Assembly: GCA_036971615.1 (NCBI GenBank) | Contig: JAYKKR010000010.1 | Location: 1,054,001-1,118,000 of the forward strand | Direction of reading: 5' to 3' | DNA from: Amyloporia xantha | Taxonomy: Eukaryota > Basidiomycota > Agaricomycetes > Polyporales > Adustoporiaceae | Length of the DNA: 64,000 nt | In this document: positions 859 through 10,780 of the stretch, in pieces | Layout of the letters: each line of letters opens with the position of its first letter | Numbering within the stretch: the stretch's first letter is position 1 | The notes under the pieces: generated by a model | The model's database searches: none | What the model was told of the DNA's origin: nothing | What the model saw: only the letters and a program-made list of their open reading frames with translations | Made by a program: the position numbers and the translations under genes

Positions 859-1532
859 TTCCCCATGATCAAGGAGAAGCCGCGCTAGTCATCGACTACG
901 ATGGGGTAACACCGAGTATTTCCTTCGTTTCTCCGATTAATTCTTCTATTCCGAATGCAGTCTCGTCCCTCTATCTCTCGGCATGTACCTCCGTTTCTTC
1001 ATATTTACAGTCTCTCTACGCCACGGACTCTACAGCTTCTAATGCCGCCCCGTCGAACGCTTCGACGTGGGCTTCGACTCTTCTATTCTCAGCTCCGTTC
1101 GCTTCGACTCCGCCCGCTCCCGTCCCGACGAAGTCCCTCTCCCAGTTCTCCAACTCGATTCTCCCCTTTCCTTCGACGACTTCGACTTCTATCCCTTCGA
1201 CGCACAAGATACTCGCCGCGACGAAGAAGAAATACAAGCCTGTCGCTCTCAAAACCCGACCCGTCCTTGGTGCCGTCCCCGAACAATTTCGCATACTTCG
1301 GGACATCAAGGGCGACCCACTATCCATCATGCCTAAGCTCTCGACCGACCCCCCGCCATTCAAACCTACCGGTCGGTACACCCTCGAACGCTTTGAAACC
1401 ACCGAGAAGCTCCACGACGGCGATTTCCTGCTTCCCGACGAGCGTCGAGTCCTCCACCACTTCATGTGCCTGCACAACGAAGCCTTCGCATGGACCGACG
1501 ACGAGCGCGGATGCTTCAAGCCCGAGTATTTC
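822..1532 (+). CDS. Element A pol, amino-terminal piece up to the insertion
   Basis: This frame overlaps the end of the protease frame (822-858). It encodes a Ser/Thr/Pro-rich linker and then the conserved leader found just before reverse transcriptase in agaricomycete Ty3 elements, with the sense of large acidic-aromatic blocks such as LLPDERRVLHHF and DDERGCF. The frame runs into the nested LTR after the codon at 1530-1532. Skipping 1533-7834, which is the nested element plus one copy of its target duplication, continues the same protein in phase at 7835. The element was therefore an open pol gene at this point when it was hit. Residues read past 1532 into the LTR are not part of the original protein. 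Confidence 0.85.
1528..1532. repeat. Target-site duplication ATTTC, left copy (right copy 7830-7834)
   Basis: ATTTC precedes TGTAAC at 1533 and follows GTTACA at 7829. A 5-bp duplication is the usual integrase signature. Removing the element and one copy restores the element A pol frame, which independently confirms both boundaries. Confidence 0.95.
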
Positions 1533-1786
1533 TGTAACGTGCCGTTACATATCTATTCAATTACATTCCATTATATTATTATAATCCCTTATCCTAGGCT
1601 TATATGCCCTTATCATCTATATTTACATATGTTTGTGTGCCAGCACATATGCCACCATCTATTTCCTTTCTAAGACGAACACTTCTTTCACATTACATCC
1701 ATGTATGCACTACTGTAGACTTTCTCTGGAATAGAGATTGGGTGCAGCGCATACCAGGTGTGAGTGAGAGAAGTATATTTGTTACA
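1533..1786 (+). repeat. 5' LTR of the nested element
   Basis: 254 bp, TG...CA, beginning TGTAACGTGCCGTTACA, so the LTR start is itself a small inverted repeat. It is nearly identical to 7576-7829, with differences concentrated around 1672-1720. The host pol codon phase is intact on its left side. Confidence 0.95.
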
Positions 1787-1844
1787 CATTTTTGCGCTCC
1801 TCTGACTTTGTCAGGTTTCTACAACCTGGGAGAGTTTACAGCGC

Positions 1845-4800
1845 ATGCATACATTTACAACTGCCTACTTCACTAAGTGGCCAGCTGGAACTGTCCTCTT
1901 GGCTAAATGCCTTGAGGTGTTGCATCCATTACATGAAGAAGCTCACAGTTCTTCATGCAATGCTTGGAAAGCCCAAGACCTTCCCTCCTGGGTTCACTGG
2001 GAGAGAAGGTCTCTGTCATTTGAGAGGGCAATCTCAGATTTAATCGAGATGCCTCTCGAGGATTTCGAGAGACGAGTCGCTCGGTTTAACGACCGAGCGA
2101 AACGGTATGGTTTCGAGCGCGAAGACCGCGCGCTCATGGCAGTCAGTACCATCCGGTACTGTGTCATGGCGCAGATCGACCACGACGAGAAGCGACGCGC
2201 TGAACAGCGGTCCTCTCCCGTACGCGAATCTGCGCAGCTCAGCAGGCCCGCAACGGGGACCTCTGAGGCTGCCCGAGGTTTGCGCCCGACGCCCCGCGCA
2301 GTCATTCCCGACGCGCGGCGCGGCGAGCGCTTACAAGCGCCTCCTTCCGCTACCACCACCACCACCACCACCACCACCACTGCCACTCCGACCTCAAGAC
2401 CGGCCACCACCACCACCACTGCAACACCCACGGCCACGGGACCTGAACGGACGCGCCCGGTACCCCCGAGCGTGCCAGTTAGGCCCGTACAAGAAGGCCT
2501 CCAGCCGCCACCACATCCGCGCGCCGTGCCCGTCGACGGCGCGCCCCATCCCTCTGCGACGCGTCAAGACGCGTCGTACGGACTTCAACCTCACGACTCG
2601 GACCCCCAAGAGGTCTCGAGCGTCGTTCCGCGTCCGCAGGACGAACTCGCCGGGCGGTTGCGCGCCCGGGAGGGGATAGGAACCGGGAACAGGGGCACCC
2701 ACAAAAGTAAGTACCCCAGTTCGTCCGCGATCCGCCCCGAACCGCCGCCCAACGCGCACAGTAGTGCCGCGTTGGGTGGACTGCTACTCTCGAGTACTCA
2801 CGTACTCGAGAACGCGACAGAGAGCGGTGCGCTCGTCAGCCTAGCTGACGGCGCACCCGTTTCGTCTGCCACCCGCATAGAGCCGCCGCCCGACGTACGC
2901 ATCTGCGCCGCGCCGGGTGGGCTGTCAGACTCGAGTACAGAAGTACTCGAGAATGCAACGGTAAGGGGCGCGCCCGCCAGCGTAGCTGACGGCGCACCTG
3001 CTCCGCCCACTGTCCGCCAAGGACCACCGCCGAACGCGCACGTCCGTGCTGCGCCGGGCGGAACGATGTTCTCGAGTACCTTAGTACTCGGGAACATGGC
3101 CGGGCGTACGAGCGACGCGCACAGCAGCACAGCTGTCTGCGCGCAGCCGCTGTCTACCCCGCGCCTCGCACCCTGGACCAGCGTACACCATGGTGCTACG
3201 TTGGGACGGGCGTACTACTCGAGTGCTGTTGCACTCGAGAGTACCATGCTCGATCGTTCGAGCGCGGGCGTGCCGACCAAGACACACTGCTCGAGTACTC
3301 GAGTACTCGAGCAGGCATCTCGTTCGAGTGCACCGGCACCTGTGCAGGATCGTGCACACAGCGTTCGTCACGCCAGCTCGCGAGACGAACTGCTCTCCCC
3401 AAGTACATTCGTACTTGAGGAGGCGCATGCGAACGATGTACGCATCAGTATGACTGAATGCGCACATCTGCCGCGGTCCTGCTGCTTCCAACCACCACCC
3501 GATGCGCACAGCGGTGCCGCGCCGGGTGGGCCGTTGCTCCTGAGTACCTCCGTACTCGAGAGTGCCGATGCGAACGGCGTGTATATCAGCATAGCTGATT
3601 GCACGCGCGAATCGCTGGTTGCTCAATACGAGCGACCGCTCAACGCGCACGTTAGTGCAGCGCTGGGCAGACCGTTGCTCCCGAGTGCTTCGACACTCGA
3701 GAGCACGAGCGCGAGCGATACACACGACAGCGCCGACTGTGTGTACATGCCGCCAGTCGTCCGTGGTCGCCCAGAGCCTCCTCCCAGCGTGCACATCTGT
3801 GCCGCGCTGAGTGGACTATGGTTCCCGAGTACCAAGGTACTCGAGAACACAGGGGCGAGCGATATGTGCAGCAGCTTGGCTGACTACGCGCCGACGCCGC
3901 TGCCTCTCCATTCCGAACCACTACCCAACGAGCACAGCAGTGCTACGCTGGGTAGACCGTCGCCCCCGAGCACTTCGGTACTCGAGGACACAGAAGTGCG
4001 CAATGTACGCAGCGCATTCAGTGCTCGCGTACAGGGCAGGCTGCTGCTCCCGAGTACTCCAGTACTCGAGAGTATGGAGACGGACGATACGTGCAGCGGC
4101 ATAGCTGACTGTGCGTATACACCGTCTGCCTGCTGTGCTCGACCAGAGCTGCCTCCCAATGCACACAGTGGTGCGGTGTTGGGTAGGTCGTCCTCTTCGA
4201 GTACTTCAGTACTCGAGAGGGCCACTCTACTTCGCCCGTACACGGCTGCATCGGCCGGAGCACCCTGCCCGAGTAGACGACTACTCGATCGGATACTCCA
4301 CCCGAGCACGCTGGCGTGCACGCGGCGTTGTGCGCACAGCACATTCAGTGCGTGCGTGCCAGACAGACAGCGGTCCCCAAGTACTATTGTACTTGAGGAC
4401 GCGGATGCAAGCGACGCACGATTCAGCATGAATGAATGCGCGCGCCCGCCGCATCGTCCTCCATCTCAAATACTACCTACCTCGCACAGCTGTGCTGTGG
4501 TGGGTAGGCCGCTACCTTCGAGTACCCCAATACTCGAGGGTGCGCATGTGAACGGGCTGCACGTCAGCACGGTTGACTGTGCGCGTCCGCCGCACCCAGT
4601 TCGTTCCCCACCCAGCGCGCATGCTAGTGCCGCGTCGGGAAGGGTACTTTTCCCGAGTACTGTAGTACTCGAGGGGGCTGTCGTTCGACGCCCGCGCGCC
4701 AACCCAATCGGACGGGCGTACTCTTCGAGTACTCCTGTACTCGAAAGTACTTGCCGTGCCGCCGGGTCTGACGCCGCAGACGACAGACGGCACCGCTCAT

Positions 4801-6545
4801 GCAGCCGAGCACGGAGTACTGCATATGCGCCGAGTACTATGGTACTCGACGTAACTGGCAGTGACTGCGTGTGCCCGCCGCCGAACGTGCACGCTAGTGC
4901 AACGTTGGGCAGACCGTTGCCCCCGAGCACCTCGGTACTCGAGAGCATGGGCGCGGATGGCGTGTATATCAGCATAGCTGATTGCACGCACATATCGCTG
5001 GTGGTTGCTCAACTCGAGCCCTGGCCCAACGTGCATTTCGATGCAGTGGTGGGTGGGTCGTTGTCCTCGATTACTGCGATGCTCGAGCACGGGCATCCTC
5101 CGCATCTCAGCCATCACCCGCCCCAACATAACAAGCACAATGATGCTGCGTTGGGATGGGTATCGCTCTCGAGTATGACACTCGAGGGGGCACTCTTTCC
5201 GCATCCGAACGCGGACGCACCGGCTGGGGCACACCACCCGAATACTCCGATATTCGAGTGGCTACCCCACCCGAGTACGCCGACGTCCGTACCAGGTCGT
5301 GCGCGCAGCGATTCCAACGCCTGCGCGCAGGACCAACCGTTGTCCTCAAGTATGGTTGTACTCGAGAACATGGGTGTGAGCTGTACACGAATCAGCACCG
5401 CCGATTCGATGTACTTGCCGCTCCTTGCTCACCATGAGCCCGTACCCGATGTGCACACCAGCACATCGTCAGGCACACGACCACCCTCAAGTACGAAAGT
5501 ACTTGAGCAGGCAAACTTGAGCATTCCGCGAGTCGGCATGACTGACTATGCGCGAATGCTACGAGTAATTTGCTCTGAGCCTGCATCTACTGCATGCAGT
5601 AGTGTGGCTCTGAGCAGGGTGTATCACCCGAGTACTTTCATAGTACTCGAGTGGATTGCTACTGCAGTGCCGTTGATAAGTAGCACTGCAATACCTCCTC
5701 GCCCTCCACCTCGGCCAGCACCAGCGCCGGCACCAGGCCCCGGACAAGGACCTGGGCCGACGGCATCATACATGGGGGCGACCAATTATGGTCGCCACTA
5801 TGGAGCGGTGCCACAAGCAGTGTACACAGGCTACTTTGGATGCATGTCCACCTTGGATATCGGAGTATCTGAGGGTGAATATGCCCAAGGTATGCTTGTC
5901 GACAGACATACAAACAACTTACCATGTTGTTTGTATGCCCCCTGCATGAAGCATTCGAGTACATCTTCTATGTACTCGACTTCTCCTTTCCTTTCGAAAT
6001 GTCTGACCCTTGTCTCTATTGGACTTGGGCCATTCTTTCGGTGGATAGATGAAGTATTTTATACTTTGTCTATTCTAATTGTAGTGCTACTTGCCAGTCG
6101 CACTATCCTACCTCCCAAACGACTGAACCCAGACTCTGCTGCCGAAGTTCATCAGACCGGGGTATCTTTCCGAGGGAGGGACCGGGAGCCCGACCAATTC
6201 CCATTGGTCCTGCTCTTCGGTGACAATTCCATATCACTGGGATTGTCGCTCCTCAAATGGAATACTTTCAATTCCAGTTTGAGTCTGCTGACCAGCGCTC
6301 ATCAGCGCTCATCAGGAATCGAAGTCTGTAACCGACTTCGATTGACGCTGGAGGTCTATATAGACCGTCGACGTGGACAGGGATCCTCCATCCTCTCAAC
6401 CACCATGTCCACCGACAACGCCTCCATCGCCCCAAGCCCCTATACGCCCAGCATCTCAGATGCTGAGCGCATAGAGGGTGAATGTGCCCTTGCCTATGAG
6501 ACTGAGGTCATCTTGGCAAGGTGCAGAGCAGCGCAAGCCGCTTAG
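1845..6545 (+). CDS. 1,566-codon ORF of the nested element with repeated (P/S)-S-T-x-V-L-E motif; function unknown
   Basis: One frame stays open for 4.7 kb. About residues 60-125 form a charged helical segment (ISDLIEMPLEDFERRV onward, then KRRAEQR) that could be a Gag-like domain, but I do not recognise it. A poly-Thr run and Pro-rich stretch follow. From about residue 310 to 1270 the motif P/S-S-T-x-V-L-E recurs about 25 times, 24-50 residues apart, interspersed with short C-A-P/H and P-P-N-A-H-x-x-A blocks. The tail is Pro-rich, then hydrophobic, then acidic. Every copy of the motif lies in this same frame despite variable spacing, and loop-length changes are whole codons. That argues for translation. 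Against it, other frames are also unusually open, because the repeat is GC-rich and poor in stops. It could be a structural Gag substitute or a passenger. Confidence 0.5.
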   Translation: MHTFTTAYFTKWPAGTVLLAKCLEVLHPLHEEAHSSSCNAWKAQDLPSWVHWERRSLSFERAISDLIEMPLEDFERRVARFNDRAKRYGFEREDRALMAVSTIRYCVMAQIDHDEKRRAEQRSSPVRESAQLSRPATGTSEAARGLRPTPRAVIPDARRGERLQAPPSATTTTTTTTTTATPTSRPATTTTTATPTATGPERTRPVPPSVPVRPVQEGLQPPPHPRAVPVDGAPHPSATRQDASYGLQPHDSDPQEVSSVVPRPQDELAGRLRAREGIGTGNRGTHKSKYPSSSAIRPEPPPNAHSSAALGGLLLSSTHVLENATESGALVSLADGAPVSSATRIEPPPDVRICAAPGGLSDSSTEVLENATVRGAPASVADGAPAPPTVRQGPPPNAHVRAAPGGTMFSSTLVLGNMAGRTSDAHSSTAVCAQPLSTPRLAPWTSVHHGATLGRAYYSSAVALESTMLDRSSAGVPTKTHCSSTRVLEQASRSSAPAPVQDRAHSVRHASSRDELLSPSTFVLEEAHANDVRISMTECAHLPRSCCFQPPPDAHSGAAPGGPLLLSTSVLESADANGVYISIADCTRESLVAQYERPLNAHVSAALGRPLLPSASTLESTSASDTHDSADCVYMPPVVRGRPEPPPSVHICAALSGLWFPSTKVLENTGASDMCSSLADYAPTPLPLHSEPLPNEHSSATLGRPSPPSTSVLEDTEVRNVRSAFSARVQGRLLLPSTPVLESMETDDTCSGIADCAYTPSACCARPELPPNAHSGAVLGRSSSSSTSVLERATLLRPYTAASAGAPCPSRRLLDRILHPSTLACTRRCAHSTFSACVPDRQRSPSTIVLEDADASDARFSMNECARPPHRPPSQILPTSHSCAVVGRPLPSSTPILEGAHVNGLHVSTVDCARPPHPVRSPPSAHASAASGRVLFPSTVVLEGAVVRRPRANPIGRAYSSSTPVLESTCRAAGSDAADDRRHRSCSRARSTAYAPSTMVLDVTGSDCVCPPPNVHASATLGRPLPPSTSVLESMGADGVYISIADCTHISLVVAQLEPWPNVHFDAVVGGSLSSITAMLEHGHPPHLSHHPPQHNKHNDAALGWVSLSSMTLEGALFPHPNADAPAGAHHPNTPIFEWLPHPSTPTSVPGRARSDSNACAQDQPLSSSMVVLENMGVSCTRISTADSMYLPLLAHHEPVPDVHTSTSSGTRPPSSTKVLEQANLSIPRVGMTDYARMLRVICSEPASTACSSVALSRVYHPSTFIVLEWIATAVPLISSTAIPPRPPPRPAPAPAPGPGQGPGPTASYMGATNYGRHYGAVPQAVYTGYFGCMSTLDIGVSEGEYAQGMLVDRHTNNLPCCLYAPCMKHSSTSSMYSTSPFLSKCLTLVSIGLGPFFRWIDEVFYTLSILIVVLLASRTILPPKRLNPDSAAEVHQTGVSFRGRDREPDQFPLVLLFGDNSISLGLSLLKWNTFNSSLSLLTSAHQRSSGIEVCNRLRLTLEVYIDRRRGQGSSILSTTMSTDNASIAPSPYTPSISDAERIEGECALAYETEVILARCRAAQAA
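2352..2420 (+). repeat. ACC trinucleotide repeats
   Basis: Two short ACC tracts code for runs of threonine in the long ORF of the nested element. This is a simple low-complexity repeat. Confidence 0.9.
2789..5655 (+). repeat. Array of about 25 hairpins with covarying arms, unit near 141 bp
   Basis: Core arms are CTCGAGTAC and GTACTCGAG around a 3-6 nt loop, at about 2789, 2930, 3071, 3218, 3290, 3398, 3540, 3682, 3824, 3966, 4052, 4196, 4269, 4378, 4518, 4653, 4725, 4830, 4922, 5066, 5168, 5239, 5340, 5488 and 5632. A further copy is at about 5957. Several spacings I measured exactly are 141, 141, 147, 72 and 108 bp, all multiples of three. Arms change together: GAGTGC with GCACTC (3218), AAGTAC with GTACTT (3398), GAGTAG with CTACTC (4271), CGAATA with TATTCG (5239). 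Between them lie other inverted repeats, such as GTCAGC-CTA-GCTGAC at about 2834 and CCCAACGCG...CGCGTTGGG at about 2747-2776. Confidence 0.9.
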
Positions 6546-7560
6546 TGGTATCTTCTGCTTCCAGAAGATGACTCACAGCTGTATGCCTACATTGAAGTAT
6601 GGCTGCAGCACCTTACTGCATGCCGTCTTCACAACATTGAATATGTTGTGGAGGCGCGACGGAGGTTACTCCCTCTCCTCCAGCGTACAACACCTGATGT
6701 GTTGTACACTTCATCCCAGCGTACGTCACACCTACCAGTGCGACGCACATACCAGGAGCAGTCTGTCGCTGCTTCTGATGCGGATAGTGACAGCATGCCA
6801 TACGCTGTCATCTATCCACCAGATGCCATTGCGCTGTGCCCCAGCGCTGGTTTCCCAGTATATGAGGTTCGCGTCAGTTCCTGGCGCAGCTTCTTCATGC
6901 CCTCAGCGCCTTCATCGACGCTGTGTAACCATTGCACTAGACCGTCTAGGTCAACGGCATGGACATGTCGAGATGCCATGTGTGTCGTCTCCTCATACAC
7001 GCGACATGCCTAACCGGTGTCGCGTGGTACGCCAGCGGGCATGCCAGATACTTCACAGTTTGGTATGCCCTATTTATGGACATGCTGCATGCTTAACTGG
7101 TGCAGCGTATCTCTGTGGACTTGCCACATGCCTAATCGGTGTGGCATGCCGTATTTCCTCGAATCAGTCGTCATCCACTATCATGACTGACGACGGATTC
7201 GGCGATGCACCTTGATGCCTCTCCAGGTCATCAGCAATGGATAACATTGCTGAGGATGCAGAGGTAACCCCCCTGTGTCCTGCTGGTCCAAAGGCAGAGT
7301 GACCCTACTGCCTGGGACCCAGATGCGATGTTGGCGCTCACTGGTCTCTGGGGACTGGTTTGCGTTGATGTCAACTCTGCTGCGGACTGTGCTTGCCACA
7401 TGTCTAAGTACTACTCCTTGACCTGCGTGGAGTGTTCACAATTTGATTGTGAACTGTTGCTGCGGGGACTTCATCGTCTCCTGCAAAGGAATACATTCCA
7501 CTGGTTTCATCCATTTCAAAGTGCGATGGGCCCTGCCTCCTGTTGGACCCGTGGTACGAG
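5770..7560. other. Non-repetitive but hairpin-dense right part of the nested element
   Basis: This stretch no longer shows the 141-bp unit, yet contains perfect short inverted repeats roughly every 50-150 bp, each with different arm sequence. Examples: a 12-bp stem with 7-nt loop at 5907-5937; a 9-bp stem at 6318-6342 (ATCGAAGTC with GACTTCGAT); a 9-bp stem at 6685-6707 (GTACAACAC with GTGTTGTAC); a 9-bp stem with 3-nt loop at 7434-7454. It overlaps the end of the long ORF. I do not see a convincing separate gene, although a 245-codon frame (6478-7215) and a 121-codon frame (6648-7013) are open. Confidence 0.7.
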
Positions 7561-7562
7561 TC

Positions 7563-7575
7563 CGGTAGGGGAGGA
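7563..7575 (+). other. Polypurine tract of the nested element
   Basis: The sequence GGTAGGGGAGGA abuts the first base of the right LTR. By position and composition it is the plus-strand primer site used in LTR reverse transcription. Confidence 0.8.
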
Positions 7576-7829
7576 TGTAACGTGCCGTTACATATCTATT
7601 CAATTACATTCCATTATATTATTATAATCCCTTATCCTAGGCTTATATGCCCTTATCATCTATATTTACATATGTTTGTGTGCCAGCACATATGCCACCA
7701 TCTATTTCCTTTCTAAGACTAACACTTCTTTCATATCAACACCTATGTATGCATACTGTAGACACTCTCTGGAATAGAGATTGGGTGCAGCGCATATCAG
7801 GTGTGAGTGAGAGAAGTATATTTGTTACA
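7576..7829 (+). repeat. 3' LTR of the nested element
   Basis: Same 254-bp length and same termini as 1533-1786. About ten mismatches and two compensating one-base gaps separate the copies by eye. It is followed directly by the second copy of the target duplication. Confidence 0.95.
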
Positions 7830-7834
7830 ATTTC

Positions 7835-10780
7835 CCTCCCGTCGATTTCCCCGTCGTTCCTCACACGCCCTGGGTGCAGAAGAATATACCTATTCCGCCC
7901 GGAATCTACAACGAAGTCTGCGCGGTGATCAAGCGAAAGATCGCCGCCGGAGTCTACGAACCATCGAACTCTTCGTATCGATCGCGGTGGTTCTGCGTCG
8001 TAAAGAAGGACGGCAAATCTCTTCGACTCGTTCATTCCCTCGAGCCCCTCAACGCAGTCACAATTCAACATTCCGGTGTACCGCCGACGCCCGAATATCT
8101 CGCAGAACAATTCGGAGGAAGACCATGCGGCGGCATGCTCGACCTCTACGTCGGCTACGACGAACGACTCATCGCGGAGTCTTCGAGAGACCTTACGACG
8201 TTCCAGACACCCTACGGAGCCATGCGGCTAGTAACACTCCCGATGGGTTGGACGAACTCAGTCCCCATATTCCACGACGACGTCACCTACATCCTCCAGC
8301 CCGAGATCCCGCACGTCACGGTGCCCTACGTCGACGACGTTCCCGTCAAAGGTCCCGAATCAGACTACGACGACGAACGGCTCCCTTCGAACCACGGCAT
8401 TCGACGCTTCGTATGGGAACACTTCGAGAACATGAACCGCGTCGTCACTCGAATGCGCTACGCAGGAGGAACCTTCTCCGGAGTCAAGAGTGTCCTCATC
8501 TCTCGAGAAATCATGGTGGTAGGACATCGATGCACTCCTCAAGGACGCCTTCCCGACGATTCACGAGTAGCTTCGATACGCAATTGGGGTCCCTGCGCTA
8601 CTCTATCCGACGTTCGAGCATTCCTAGGAACCATCGGCGTCGTTCGAATTTTCATCCGCAACTTCGCTCACCGCGCCGACGCGCTCGTACGCCTCACGAG
8701 GAAGGACGTCGAGTTCGAGTTCGGTCCGGAGCAAATCGCGGCGCAGGAAGATCTCAAGGATGCTCTACTGTCGTCCCCCGCACTTCGAGCAATTAATTAC
8801 GATTCCCCCTCTCCCGTCATCCTCGCCGTCGACACCTCTTTCATCGCAGTCAGATATCACCTCTGCCAGTGCGACGAAGCCAACACGCGCATTCGATACT
8901 ACAACCGTTTTGGATCGATTACGTTGAACGACCGCGAACGTCGATTCTCGCAACCCAAGTTGGAAATCTACGGCCTCTTTCGTGCGCTTCGATCCCTTCG
9001 ACTCTACCTGATCGGCGTTCGAAACCTCATCGTCGAAGTCGATGCCAGGTACATCAAGGGTATGCTGAAGAACCCCGACATTGCTCCCAGCGCAAGCATC
9101 AACCGCTGGATCGTCTCGATTCTCACCTTCCACTTTACACTCGTCCACGTCCCCGGTACGATGCACGGCCCCGACGGCCTCTCTCGACGCACAGCTCAGC
9201 CAGGCGATGTCATCGAAGACGAGGTCGACGAAGAATTCGATGACTGGATCAACCAGATGCACTCGTTCGTTCACCAGATTCAGCCCCTCCCACCCGTCCC
9301 TTCGCTTGCCATCTTAATCAATGACAGAGCCAAGGACGGCTCGGATTTCAATAAGGAGGAGGATAGCTACGAGCTAGTGCCTCGATCGGAGCAAGCGCAA
9401 CTCGCCGACGCGAAGCTCGACGACGTCCTCGAATTCCATCGAACGCTAGTGAAGCCCGACCACATTTCCGACAGCGTCTACGAAGGGTTCATCAAGTACT
9501 GCATGCAATTCTTCCTCGATAACGACACCCTCTGGCGCAAAAACAGCCACGGAGCACACAAGCTAGTCGTCAAGCCTGGCGATCGACTTCGAATCCTTCG
9601 AGAATGTCACGACCGTACCGCGCATCGAGGAATCTACGCGACCCGCGCCTTCGTCAACGAGCGATTCTGGTGGCCGTTCCACTACGCCGACATCGCCTGG
9701 TTCGTTCGATCATGCCACATTTGCCAGTCTCGCCAAGTTCGACAAATCCTCATCCCTCCGACCGTCGCAGTCCCAGCCCCGATCTTCGCGAAAATACACA
9801 TCGACACCATGCACATGCCTGCGTCTGGCGGATACAAGTACTTGGTACAAGGTAGATGCTCGCTTACGACCTACCCAGAGTTTCGAATGCTTCGAAAGGA
9901 GACAGCGAAGGCGCTCGCCGACTGGATCTTCGAAGACATCCTCTGTCGATGGGGCGCGCTTAGCGAGATCGTCACCGACAACGGTACGGCGTTCATCAAG
10001 GCGGCCGATTACCTTTCGAAGAAGTACCACATCAACCACATTCGAATCAGCGGGTACAATTCGAGGGCGAACGGTCTCGTCGAACGTCCACACTTCAGCA
10101 CGCGACAAGCCTTGTTCAAGACAGCCGACGGAGATGAGAAGAAATGGTCCCAAGCTGCGTATTTTGTCTTCTGGTCCGAACGCATCACGACTCGACGACG
10201 CATGGGCTGCTCACCCTACTTCGCTGTTACGGGCACCCACCCCCTCATTCCCCTCGACATCGTCGAAGCTACCTATCTCCAACCCCCGCCAACTTCAATC
10301 CTTTCGACGACCGATCTCATCGCCCGAAGAGCCATCGCGCTACAGAAACGCGTCGAGCAAGTCACCGAACTCCATTCGAAGGTCTACGAAGCACGTCGAA
10401 CGGCAGCAATTCGCTTCGAAAAGGAGCACGAACACTCGATCCAGGATTTCGACTTCAAGCGCGGAGCTCTAGTGCTCATACGTAACACGAAGATCGAGAA
10501 ATCCCTCAACCGCAAAATGCGCCCGCGATACCTAGGCCCCCTCATCGTTGTCTCGCGCAACAAGGGCGGCGCGTACATCGTGTGCGAGCTCGACGGGACA
10601 GTCCTCGATCGACCCATCGCAGCTTTCCGCGTCATTCCGTACTTCGCGCGCAAATCCATCCCAATTCCCGAAGATCTCGAAGATGTCTCGACAGAGCGCC
10701 TTCGAGAACTCGAACTATCGAATTCTCTCGGCGACGACGACGACAATGAAGTCGAAGAAGCCGAAGAACGCGACGAATAG
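7835..10780 (+). CDS. Element A pol: reverse transcriptase, RNase H and integrase
   Basis: The frame continues the piece ending at 1532 and is uninterrupted to the stop at 10780. Numbering from 7874, the reverse transcriptase spans about residues 1-240, with the first catalytic Asp in MLDLY (residue 90) and the YVDD box at 152-155. RNase H follows at about 315-440, with Asp in LAVD (320), Glu in QPKLE, Asp in VEVD and the final Asp in GPDGLSRR. The integrase has an HHCC zinc domain (ECHDRTAHRG ... SCHICQSRQ) and a core with IHIDTMHMP, VTDNGTAF and a downstream Glu. A chromodomain was not recognised; the C-terminus is an acidic tail. All catalytic residues I can check are present, so the enzyme could be intact apart from the insertion upstream. 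Confidence 0.92.
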   Translation, partial: PPVDFPVVPHTPWVQKNIPIPPGIYNEVCAVIKRKIAAGVYEPSNSSYRSRWFCVVKKDGKSLRLVHSLEPLNAVTIQHSGVPPTPEYLAEQFGGRPCGGMLDLYVGYDERLIAESSRDLTTFQTPYGAMRLVTLPMGWTNSVPIFHDDVTYILQPEIPHVTVPYVDDVPVKGPESDYDDERLPSNHGIRRFVWEHFENMNRVVTRMRYAGGTFSGVKSVLISREIMVVGHRCTPQGRLPDDSRVASIRNWGPCATLSDVRAFLGTIGVVRIFIRNFAHRADALVRLTRKDVEFEFGPEQIAAQEDLKDALLSSPALRAINYDSPSPVILAVDTSFIAVRYHLCQCDEANTRIRYYNRFGSITLNDRERRFSQPKLEIYGLFRALRSLRLYLIGVRNLIVEVDARYIKGMLKNPDIAPSASINRWIVSILTFHFTLVHVPGTMHGPDGLSRRTAQPGDVIEDEVDEEFDDWINQMHSFVHQIQPLPPVPSLAILINDRAKDGSDFNKEEDSYELVPRSEQAQLADAKLDDVLEFHRTLVKPDHISDSVYEGFIKYCMQFFLDNDTLWRKNSHGAHKLVVKPGDRLRILRECHDRTAHRGIYATRAFVNERFWWPFHYADIAWFVRSCHICQSRQVRQILIPPTVAVPAPIFAKIHIDTMHMPASGGYKYLVQGRCSLTTYPEFRMLRKETAKALADWIFEDILCRWGALSEIVTDNGTAFIKAADYLSKKYHINHIRISGYNSRANGLVERPHFSTRQALFKTADGDEKKWSQAAYFVFWSERITTRRRMGCSPYFAVTGTHPLIPLDIVEATYLQPPPTSILSTTDLIARRAIALQKRVEQVTELHSKVYEARRTAAIRFEKEHEHSIQDFDFKRGALVLIRNTKIEKSLNRKMRPRYLGPLIVVSRNKGGAYIVCELDGTVLDRPIAAFRVIPYFARKSIPIPEDLEDVSTERLRELELSNSLGDDDDNEVEEAEERDE
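9345..9361 (+). other. Candidate central polypurine tract in element A pol
   Basis: ATTTCAATAAGGAGGAG here is identical over 17 bases to the tract just before the 3' LTR (12839-12855). The similarity extends upstream, with GGACGG at the same distance. In frame it reads D-F-N-K-E-E, between RNase H and the integrase zinc domain. Central polypurine tracts in the integrase region are known from lentiviruses and yeast Ty1. Confidence 0.6.

Follow-up and report, generated by a model that had tools for sequence, protein, structure and literature searches.

The window analysed here, a stretch of 64,000 nucleotides from the basidiomycete Amyloporia xantha, contains a dense series of short hairpins within an element bounded by long terminal repeats (LTRs), and raises the question of what keeps so many hairpins in one piece of DNA. 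A first-pass annotation had placed about 25 hairpins with covarying arms at 2789..5655. This count is borne out: 20 hairpins of the type CTCGAGTAC/GTACTCGAG with a pairing score of at least 7 lie between 2788 and 5653, five weaker ones are visible near 3540, 3966, 4923, 5067 and 5345, and the arm variants named at the time (GAGTGC/GCACTC, AAGTAC/GTACTT, GAGTAG/CTACTC, CGAATA/TATTCG) are present. Other hairpins, such as CCCAACGCG/CGCGTTGGG, are found between the CTCGAGTAC/GTACTCGAG ones. Hairpins of array quality in fact span the internal region of the element, the first at 1927 and the last at 7454, so that the feature has roughly double the length first noted, and the in-frame position of the array within a 1579-codon open reading frame (ORF) had been missed.

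The hairpins are part of an LTR element of 6.3 kb at 1533-7829 of the window. The 5' LTR (1533..1786, forward strand, TGTAAC...GTTACA) and the 3' LTR (7576..7829, forward strand) are each 254 bp long, as previously annotated, and are 96.1% identical to each other. Their ends are TG..CA, and the 5-bp target duplication ATTTC directly precedes the former and directly follows the latter. A polypurine-tract-like sequence, GGTAGGGGAGGA (7564..7575, forward strand), adjoins the 3' LTR and is found, as a sequence match, in all seven complete copies of the element. By its paired TG..CA LTRs, the target duplication and the polypurine tract, the element is identified as an LTR retrotransposon. It sits inside another gypsy-like element, with the protease part of that host on one side and the RNase H/integrase part on the other. 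No Pfam match to a reverse transcriptase (RT), RNase H or integrase of its own was obtained in the ORF parts 1806-2711 and 5661-6542, and a genome search in which 150 of 209 candidates were scored gave no RVT_1 match inside the element. Judged by its recognizable coding content the element is non-autonomous, in agreement with the first-pass annotation.

A TGG-type primer binding site directly after the 5' LTR was not seen by eye, and a tRNA scan of the window gave no match. The post-LTR stretch CATTTTTGCGCTCC (1787..1800, forward strand) is a candidate self-priming site, in which TGCGCT is complementary, over 6 nt only, to AGCGCA near the 3' part of the LTR. At the equivalent position (988-1001) of L049, a related element described below, TACGTT pairs with AACGTA; the letters differ from those of the window element and the pairing is kept. 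It is possible that the two elements have a self-priming mode in common, perhaps a Tf1-like one.

The genome (46.8 Mb in 60 contigs) contains at least 26 matches to the LTR, from which 18 stretches were retrieved. Seven of these, including that of the window, are complete copies of 5.4-6.7 kb, complete meaning that both LTRs are present without a large insert. An exact 5-bp target duplication flanks five of the seven (window, L031, L035, L036 and L037); for L032 and L033, the boundaries applied gave no exact duplication. In three of the seven the LTR pairs are 100% identical, which indicates that transposition was recent. A further copy, L034, is 9.8 kb long, with an insertion downstream of about position 950; the longest frames it contains comprise 657, 451, 334 and 318 codons. 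At G000:C22:161787-224536, a non-autonomous copy appears to split a pol of the L049 type, with tens of kb between its two LTRs.

The array itself (2738..5655, forward strand) consists of in-frame repeats with an (S/P)STxVLE motif, most commonly spaced by 141 nt (47 amino acids), and the core hairpin CTCGAGTAC/GTACTCGAG is formed by exactly the codons of this motif within the 47-amino-acid unit. All repeat spacings are multiples of three (141, 144, 147, 84, 321 and others). Exact matches to GAGTACNNNNGTACTC number 84 in the genome, against one match to the same pattern read backwards. From the first ATG, the open frame extends over 1845..6545 on the forward strand (1566 codons of a 1579-codon stop-to-stop frame) and comprises, in this order, an N-terminal part, a P/T-rich stretch, the repeat array, a P-rich piece and a tail. 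In all seven complete copies, a single open frame of 1274-1844 codons covers the array despite its differing length, and the array is therefore very likely coding sequence. The array frame continues directly from the N-terminal part in five of the seven; L033 and L035 have their N-terminal part in a different frame (292 and 286 codons). SSTxVLE units were present in all 12 copies or fragments scanned, with 5 to 35 in each, so the array is not missing from the related copies.

Within the ORF, the N-terminal part at 1845..2048 (forward strand) has 8, 8 and 22 variable sites at codon positions 1, 2 and 3 in 10 copies, as expected of a real protein. From 2049 on, these 10 copies show no third-position excess, and their 5' alignment, which takes in a low-complexity stretch and some copies that are decayed, has 71 gap runs, of which 51 have lengths not divisible by three. 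The coding status of the array therefore depends mainly on the long open frames. Pfam searches at family cut-offs gave no match for 1845-2711 or the other ORF parts scanned, and an AlphaFold model of the N-terminal 129 amino acids had a mean pLDDT of 53.8. A non-coding array was considered as well and dropped, because the repeats are in-frame and their spacings are multiples of three. The earlier idea of a special non-coding passenger with its own role in packaging, recombination or silencing is likewise at odds with the long open frame in all seven complete copies.

Covariation of the arms was examined in 162 distinct units, which were chosen by protein similarity only (at least four of six motif residues). 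Four of eight arm pairs exceed permutations at p < 0.01, one is borderline (p 0.051) and three show no effect. The silent-silent pairs S1/L and S2/V are Watson-Crick in 110 of 162 units (83.1 in permutations) and in 125 of 162 units (98.0 in permutations), respectively. In a stricter set of 96 units, Cramer V is 0.39 for S1/L and only 0.17 for S2/V, compared with up to 0.51 for non-partner pairs. As S1/L is not clearly above these, and some non-partner sites are associated as strongly, array-only covariation was rejected as the main proof of pairing. Covariation is visible in the array, but it is confounded with the copying of whole units, which would account for part of it. For the array taken alone, the arm changes may be no more coordinated than unit copying would give.

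The hairpins are not confined to the array. The internal region of the element contains 26 perfect stems of 8 bp or more, compared with 0.85 in dinucleotide shuffles; the array 2738-5655 alone contributes 11 (0.6 in dinucleotide shuffles), and the excess is alike in the 5' part, the array and the 3' part. Even the part 3' of the ORF (6546..7562, forward strand) carries hairpins of the same kind as the rest of the element. The flanking gypsy sequence, scanned on both sides, has no perfect stem of this length, and the other 28 bins of 2 kb in the window have four in total. Mean folding z scores in 100-nt windows range from -2.57 to -2.77 on the forward and from -2.50 to -2.72 on the reverse strand in five of the seven complete copies, without a significant strand difference; the control at 10-20 kb of the window gave -0.02/-0.04. 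Against synonymous-codon shuffles, which preserve protein and codon usage, the forward-strand z lies between -17 and -29 for the element ORFs of six of the seven complete copies, which contain 28-39 stems of 7 bp or more, versus 3.5-4.8 in the shuffles.

These comparisons weigh on the idea that the hairpins are a by-product of the tandem protein motif (S/P)STxVLE, whose codons would be complementary by accident. Such an origin would fit the in-frame array and the association of non-partner sites through unit copying, but it is contradicted by the loss of structure in synonymous shuffles of the same proteins, by the equal hairpin density outside the array and 3' of the ORF, and by the occurrence of the trait in gag and pol, so that we consider it hardly credible. 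Dense stems on both strands could also point to a silencing trigger or small-RNA source, with hairpins feeding the host RNA-interference pathway. A feature harmful to the element is unlikely to be retained by selection, the copies are young (100% identical LTRs in three of the seven complete ones), and stems of such length are short for Dicer; a silencing role is therefore very improbable.

The connection to gag and pol is provided by a segment of 164 bp (5664..5827, forward strand), which matches part of the L049 gag frame at 95.7% identity. This is a Ty3/gypsy element, with RVT_1 followed by RNase H and then by Integrase_H2C2 and rve (rve below cut-off). The part of the segment from 5730 is present in only some copies of the non-autonomous element; it also gave stand-alone matches at four further genomic sites (98, 98, 98 and 86 bp), of which L049 is one. 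This patchy presence suggests template exchange between element families.

Compared with synonymous shuffles, L049 has z -16.6 in gag and -28 in pol, and the range for L049, L050, L051, L052 and L054 is -7.8 to -28, at pol DNA identities to L049 of 69-70% (L050, L051, L054) and 59% (L052). L056, L057, L058 and L059 follow with z -8.6 to -13.4, L058 being the weakest in stems (3 vs 0.8). Outside this clade, gypsy pol genes have z -1.2 (L055), -1.3 (L061) and -0.8 (L062), the window's host gypsy +0.6 and a second gypsy in the window +1.6. L053 (38% identity) shows a weak sense-strand signal (z -4.3) without a stem excess (1 vs 1.1), and such an excess is missing from the other outside lineages tested as well. 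Nine pol matches in the clade and four outside it were taken from 54, plus the two gypsy stretches of the window, so that six outside lineages were tested among the many RT matches in the genome. For the lineages tested in this one genome, hairpin saturation is the mark of one gypsy clade and its non-autonomous partner, and not of the host. Nor is the array the special part it had been taken for, since the saturation belongs to the whole element and to a Ty3/gypsy clade with gag and pol. Relatives of the L049 pol were not confirmed in viral contigs. One in-frame stop each is found in the pol of L051, L054, L056, L057 and L059, all at different places, which is ordinary decay.

Hairpins can be compared between related elements. 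Of the pairs in L049 pol hairpins, L052 retains 36% as Watson-Crick, and L050, L051 and L054 retain 58-60%. Orthologous hairpins are kept through paired changes, for example AGTGCCTTGA/TCAAGGCACT versus AATGCTTTGA/TCAAAGCATT. For the pol genes, hairpins were defined in one lineage, and silent changes were then scored in a second one, limited to sites on which all other lineages agree. Third positions changed at 51 of 355 arm sites and at 341 of 1148 sites elsewhere (odds ratio 0.40, p 2.2e-9), the latter comprising 30 of 102 in loops and 311 of 1046 outside hairpins. At fourfold sites, the counts are 18 of 142 in arms and 148 of 413 in the rest (p 7.2e-8), and loops (10 of 32) behave like sequence outside (138 of 381). 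The effect rises with stem strength, reaching 6 of 79 versus 160 of 476 at fourfold sites with score 8. None of 2000 circularly shifted arm masks gave a ratio as low as the observed 0.484, and shifting the mask by 3-15 nt raised it to 0.77-0.97.

The effect depends on the depth of the comparison. Near-identical copies show no significant arm effect (12 of 533 vs 54 of 1728, p 0.38; small numbers), and their differences probably arose mostly after insertion. The deepest pair, L052/L058, shows none either (45 of 90 vs 174 of 320, p 0.48), perhaps because the hairpins have turned over by that depth. In the non-autonomous family, variants in at least two copies have arm/rest ratios of 0.38 and 0.48 and singletons 1.04 and 0.73, with counts that overlap between the reference copies; a separate comparison of the singletons gave no arm effect (p 0.40 and 0.70). 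A cruder comparison of variability gave 0.475 in arms and 0.483 in non-arms for the 5' alignment, post-insertion changes included, and 0.207 versus 0.167 for the 3' alignment, in which post-insertion changes and a badly aligned partial copy are mixed. As partial or badly aligned copies, L034, L040 and L042 were omitted from the 5' alignment (13 copies) for the codon-position, one-arm and singleton comparisons, and L038 and L039 also for the shared-variant and singleton arm comparisons; from the 3' alignment (10 copies), L046 was omitted for all of these, and L047 also for the shared-variant comparison. Taken together, the paired bases in the clade appear to be under purifying selection, including where the protein is unaffected. 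The proposal that pairing is maintained beyond tandem duplication thus appears to hold, by way of silent sites in related pol genes and not by way of the array.

The character of the stems bears on which strand folds. Stems are enriched 2.5-16-fold for loops up to 20 nt and 0.9-1.4-fold for loops of 21-400 nt (five coding sequences), only one of 29 four-base loops is GNRA and none is UNCG, and the arms are nearly pure Watson-Crick. Arm/outside ratios at score 6 are 0.55 for G-U-making changes, 0.57 for A-C-making changes and 0.55 for transversions, and at score 7 they are 0.68, 0.44 and 0.62; at none of three thresholds do the three classes differ significantly in their depletion. In-stem A-C mismatches outnumber G-U pairs by 76:27 (p 2e-4 vs shuffles), a sum that leaves out L054 and includes repeated units, which are not independent. 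The absence of a G-U preference together with the A-C excess speaks against classical selection on sense-strand RNA. In the gag frame of L049 (L049:1028-4081), the A-C to G-U ratio is 22:4 (p 0.009 vs synonymous shuffles), which hints that folding may occur on the antisense strand. The G-U versus A-C comparison was nevertheless rejected as a test of the folding strand: static counts favour A-C, substitutions are equal, and the rRNA controls (GU:AC 10:8 in 16S and 13:11 in 23S with a lax penalty, 2:0 and 2:2 with a strict one) do not discriminate. With near-pure Watson-Crick arms, the folding molecule may be single-stranded cDNA or RNA of both strands, or mutation may have contributed.

A mutational origin was also weighed. 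The RT of the clade, or host repair, might switch template within a few bases, copy one arm from the other and thereby perfect near-palindromes, and a function would be unnecessary. Near-pure Watson-Crick stems with short loops only, no preferred loop and no sense-strand preference are what such a process would leave, and it would also act in the ORF, in the 3' part and in sequence unrelated to L049, all of which carry hairpins. Among 21 hairpins with at least two pair-creating differences, nine changed on one arm only, where about seven are expected at random; the other 12 have pair-creating differences on both arms, with a polarity that is uncertain for the L049 part (most of them), and as a test of template switching this split is not decisive. 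By our reasoning, arm-to-arm copying alone should leave the arm rates unchanged and most changes compensated, but sites in arms change at about half the rate elsewhere (about a third at fourfold sites), and Watson-Crick pairs are the outcome at only 11 of the 51 third-position arm sites that changed. An RT prone to local template switching may well create hairpins, and the slowed silent sites are unexplained by that alone. We consider a mutational origin rather unlikely.

We favour a reading in which selection for local pairing acts on the hairpins, although we would put its chances no higher than even. The array would then be one coding stretch of a non-autonomous LTR element that belongs with a Ty3/gypsy clade whose replicating sequence stays saturated with short local Watson-Crick hairpins. 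These would form during synthesis in single-stranded replication intermediates (single-stranded cDNA, the genomic RNA inside the particle, or both), and their general task would be to keep the strand occupied with itself, so that little open strand is offered to antisense or small RNAs, annealing partners and nucleases. The selected quantity would be the amount of local pairing and not particular hairpins, which may turn over individually. Copied in the same particles, the non-autonomous element would be exposed to this pressure as well, and its rapidly changing coding array would be restricted to codons that pair. Local self-folding, of the genomic RNA or of the cDNA, is the probable function of the hairpins.

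A narrower version, which we consider rather unlikely, holds that gag and pol codons are chosen such that single-stranded cDNA, and not RNA, folds back every 50-150 nt, with strict Watson-Crick pairing, no tolerance of G-U, loops up to 20 nt and both strands alike, as a structure code for the reverse-transcription intermediate, to which the non-autonomous partner would be bound too. Dispersed packaging signals, read as hairpins by the Gag of the clade and needed by the non-autonomous element for packaging, would account for the trait in elements both with and without pol. Set against this are the loop list, in which hairpins outside the array have no common loop, and the turnover of positions seen in the L049 pol pairs (36% Watson-Crick in L052, 58-60% in L050, L051 and L054), and we judge packaging signals improbable.

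If selection for local pairing is correct, a eukaryotic LTR retrotransposon lineage would be selected to carry dense local structure within its coding genes, a property shared with a non-autonomous element. Because relatives with and without the trait exist in one genome, the purpose of such structure (silencing escape, packaging or reverse transcription) can be put to the test, and selection can be told apart from template-switch mutation.

Several known systems share parts of this picture. Retrozymes are non-autonomous LTR elements with highly structured RNA, defined by hammerhead ribozymes. The window element is similarly non-autonomous, LTR-bounded and, by predicted folding, highly structured, but differs in having no hammerhead, as an Rfam scan of 1400-7950 gave 0 matches to any family at E up to 1. 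Hairpins are also made by template-switch (quasipalindrome) mutation, and those described here resemble its products in being perfect and short, with free loops and on either strand; different from what we would expect of that process, the arm rate is halved and only 11 of 51 changes are compensated. In genome-scale ordered RNA structure (GORS), positive-strand RNA viruses carry structure along the whole genome including coding sequence, with folding energy in excess over shuffles. The element and its clade likewise fold well below shuffles along their full length and through coding sequence. In contrast to GORS, the trait occurs in an LTR retrotransposon clade and not an RNA virus, is read here from predicted folding, and combines a perfect-stem excess limited to loops of about 20 nt with the absence of a G-U preference and with silently constrained arms. 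A fungal parallel in form is given by the GalEa (Copia) elements, which have one Conserved Hairpin Site after the 5' LTR (PMC5445492). Both are fungal LTR elements with conserved pairing, a 5-bp target duplication and LTRs of similar size (PMC5445492). GalEa pol is described there as Copia-type, whereas L049 is gypsy-type by its domain order, and in place of the one site described for GalEa, the elements studied here carry dozens of hairpins along gag, pol and the 3' part (PMC5445492).
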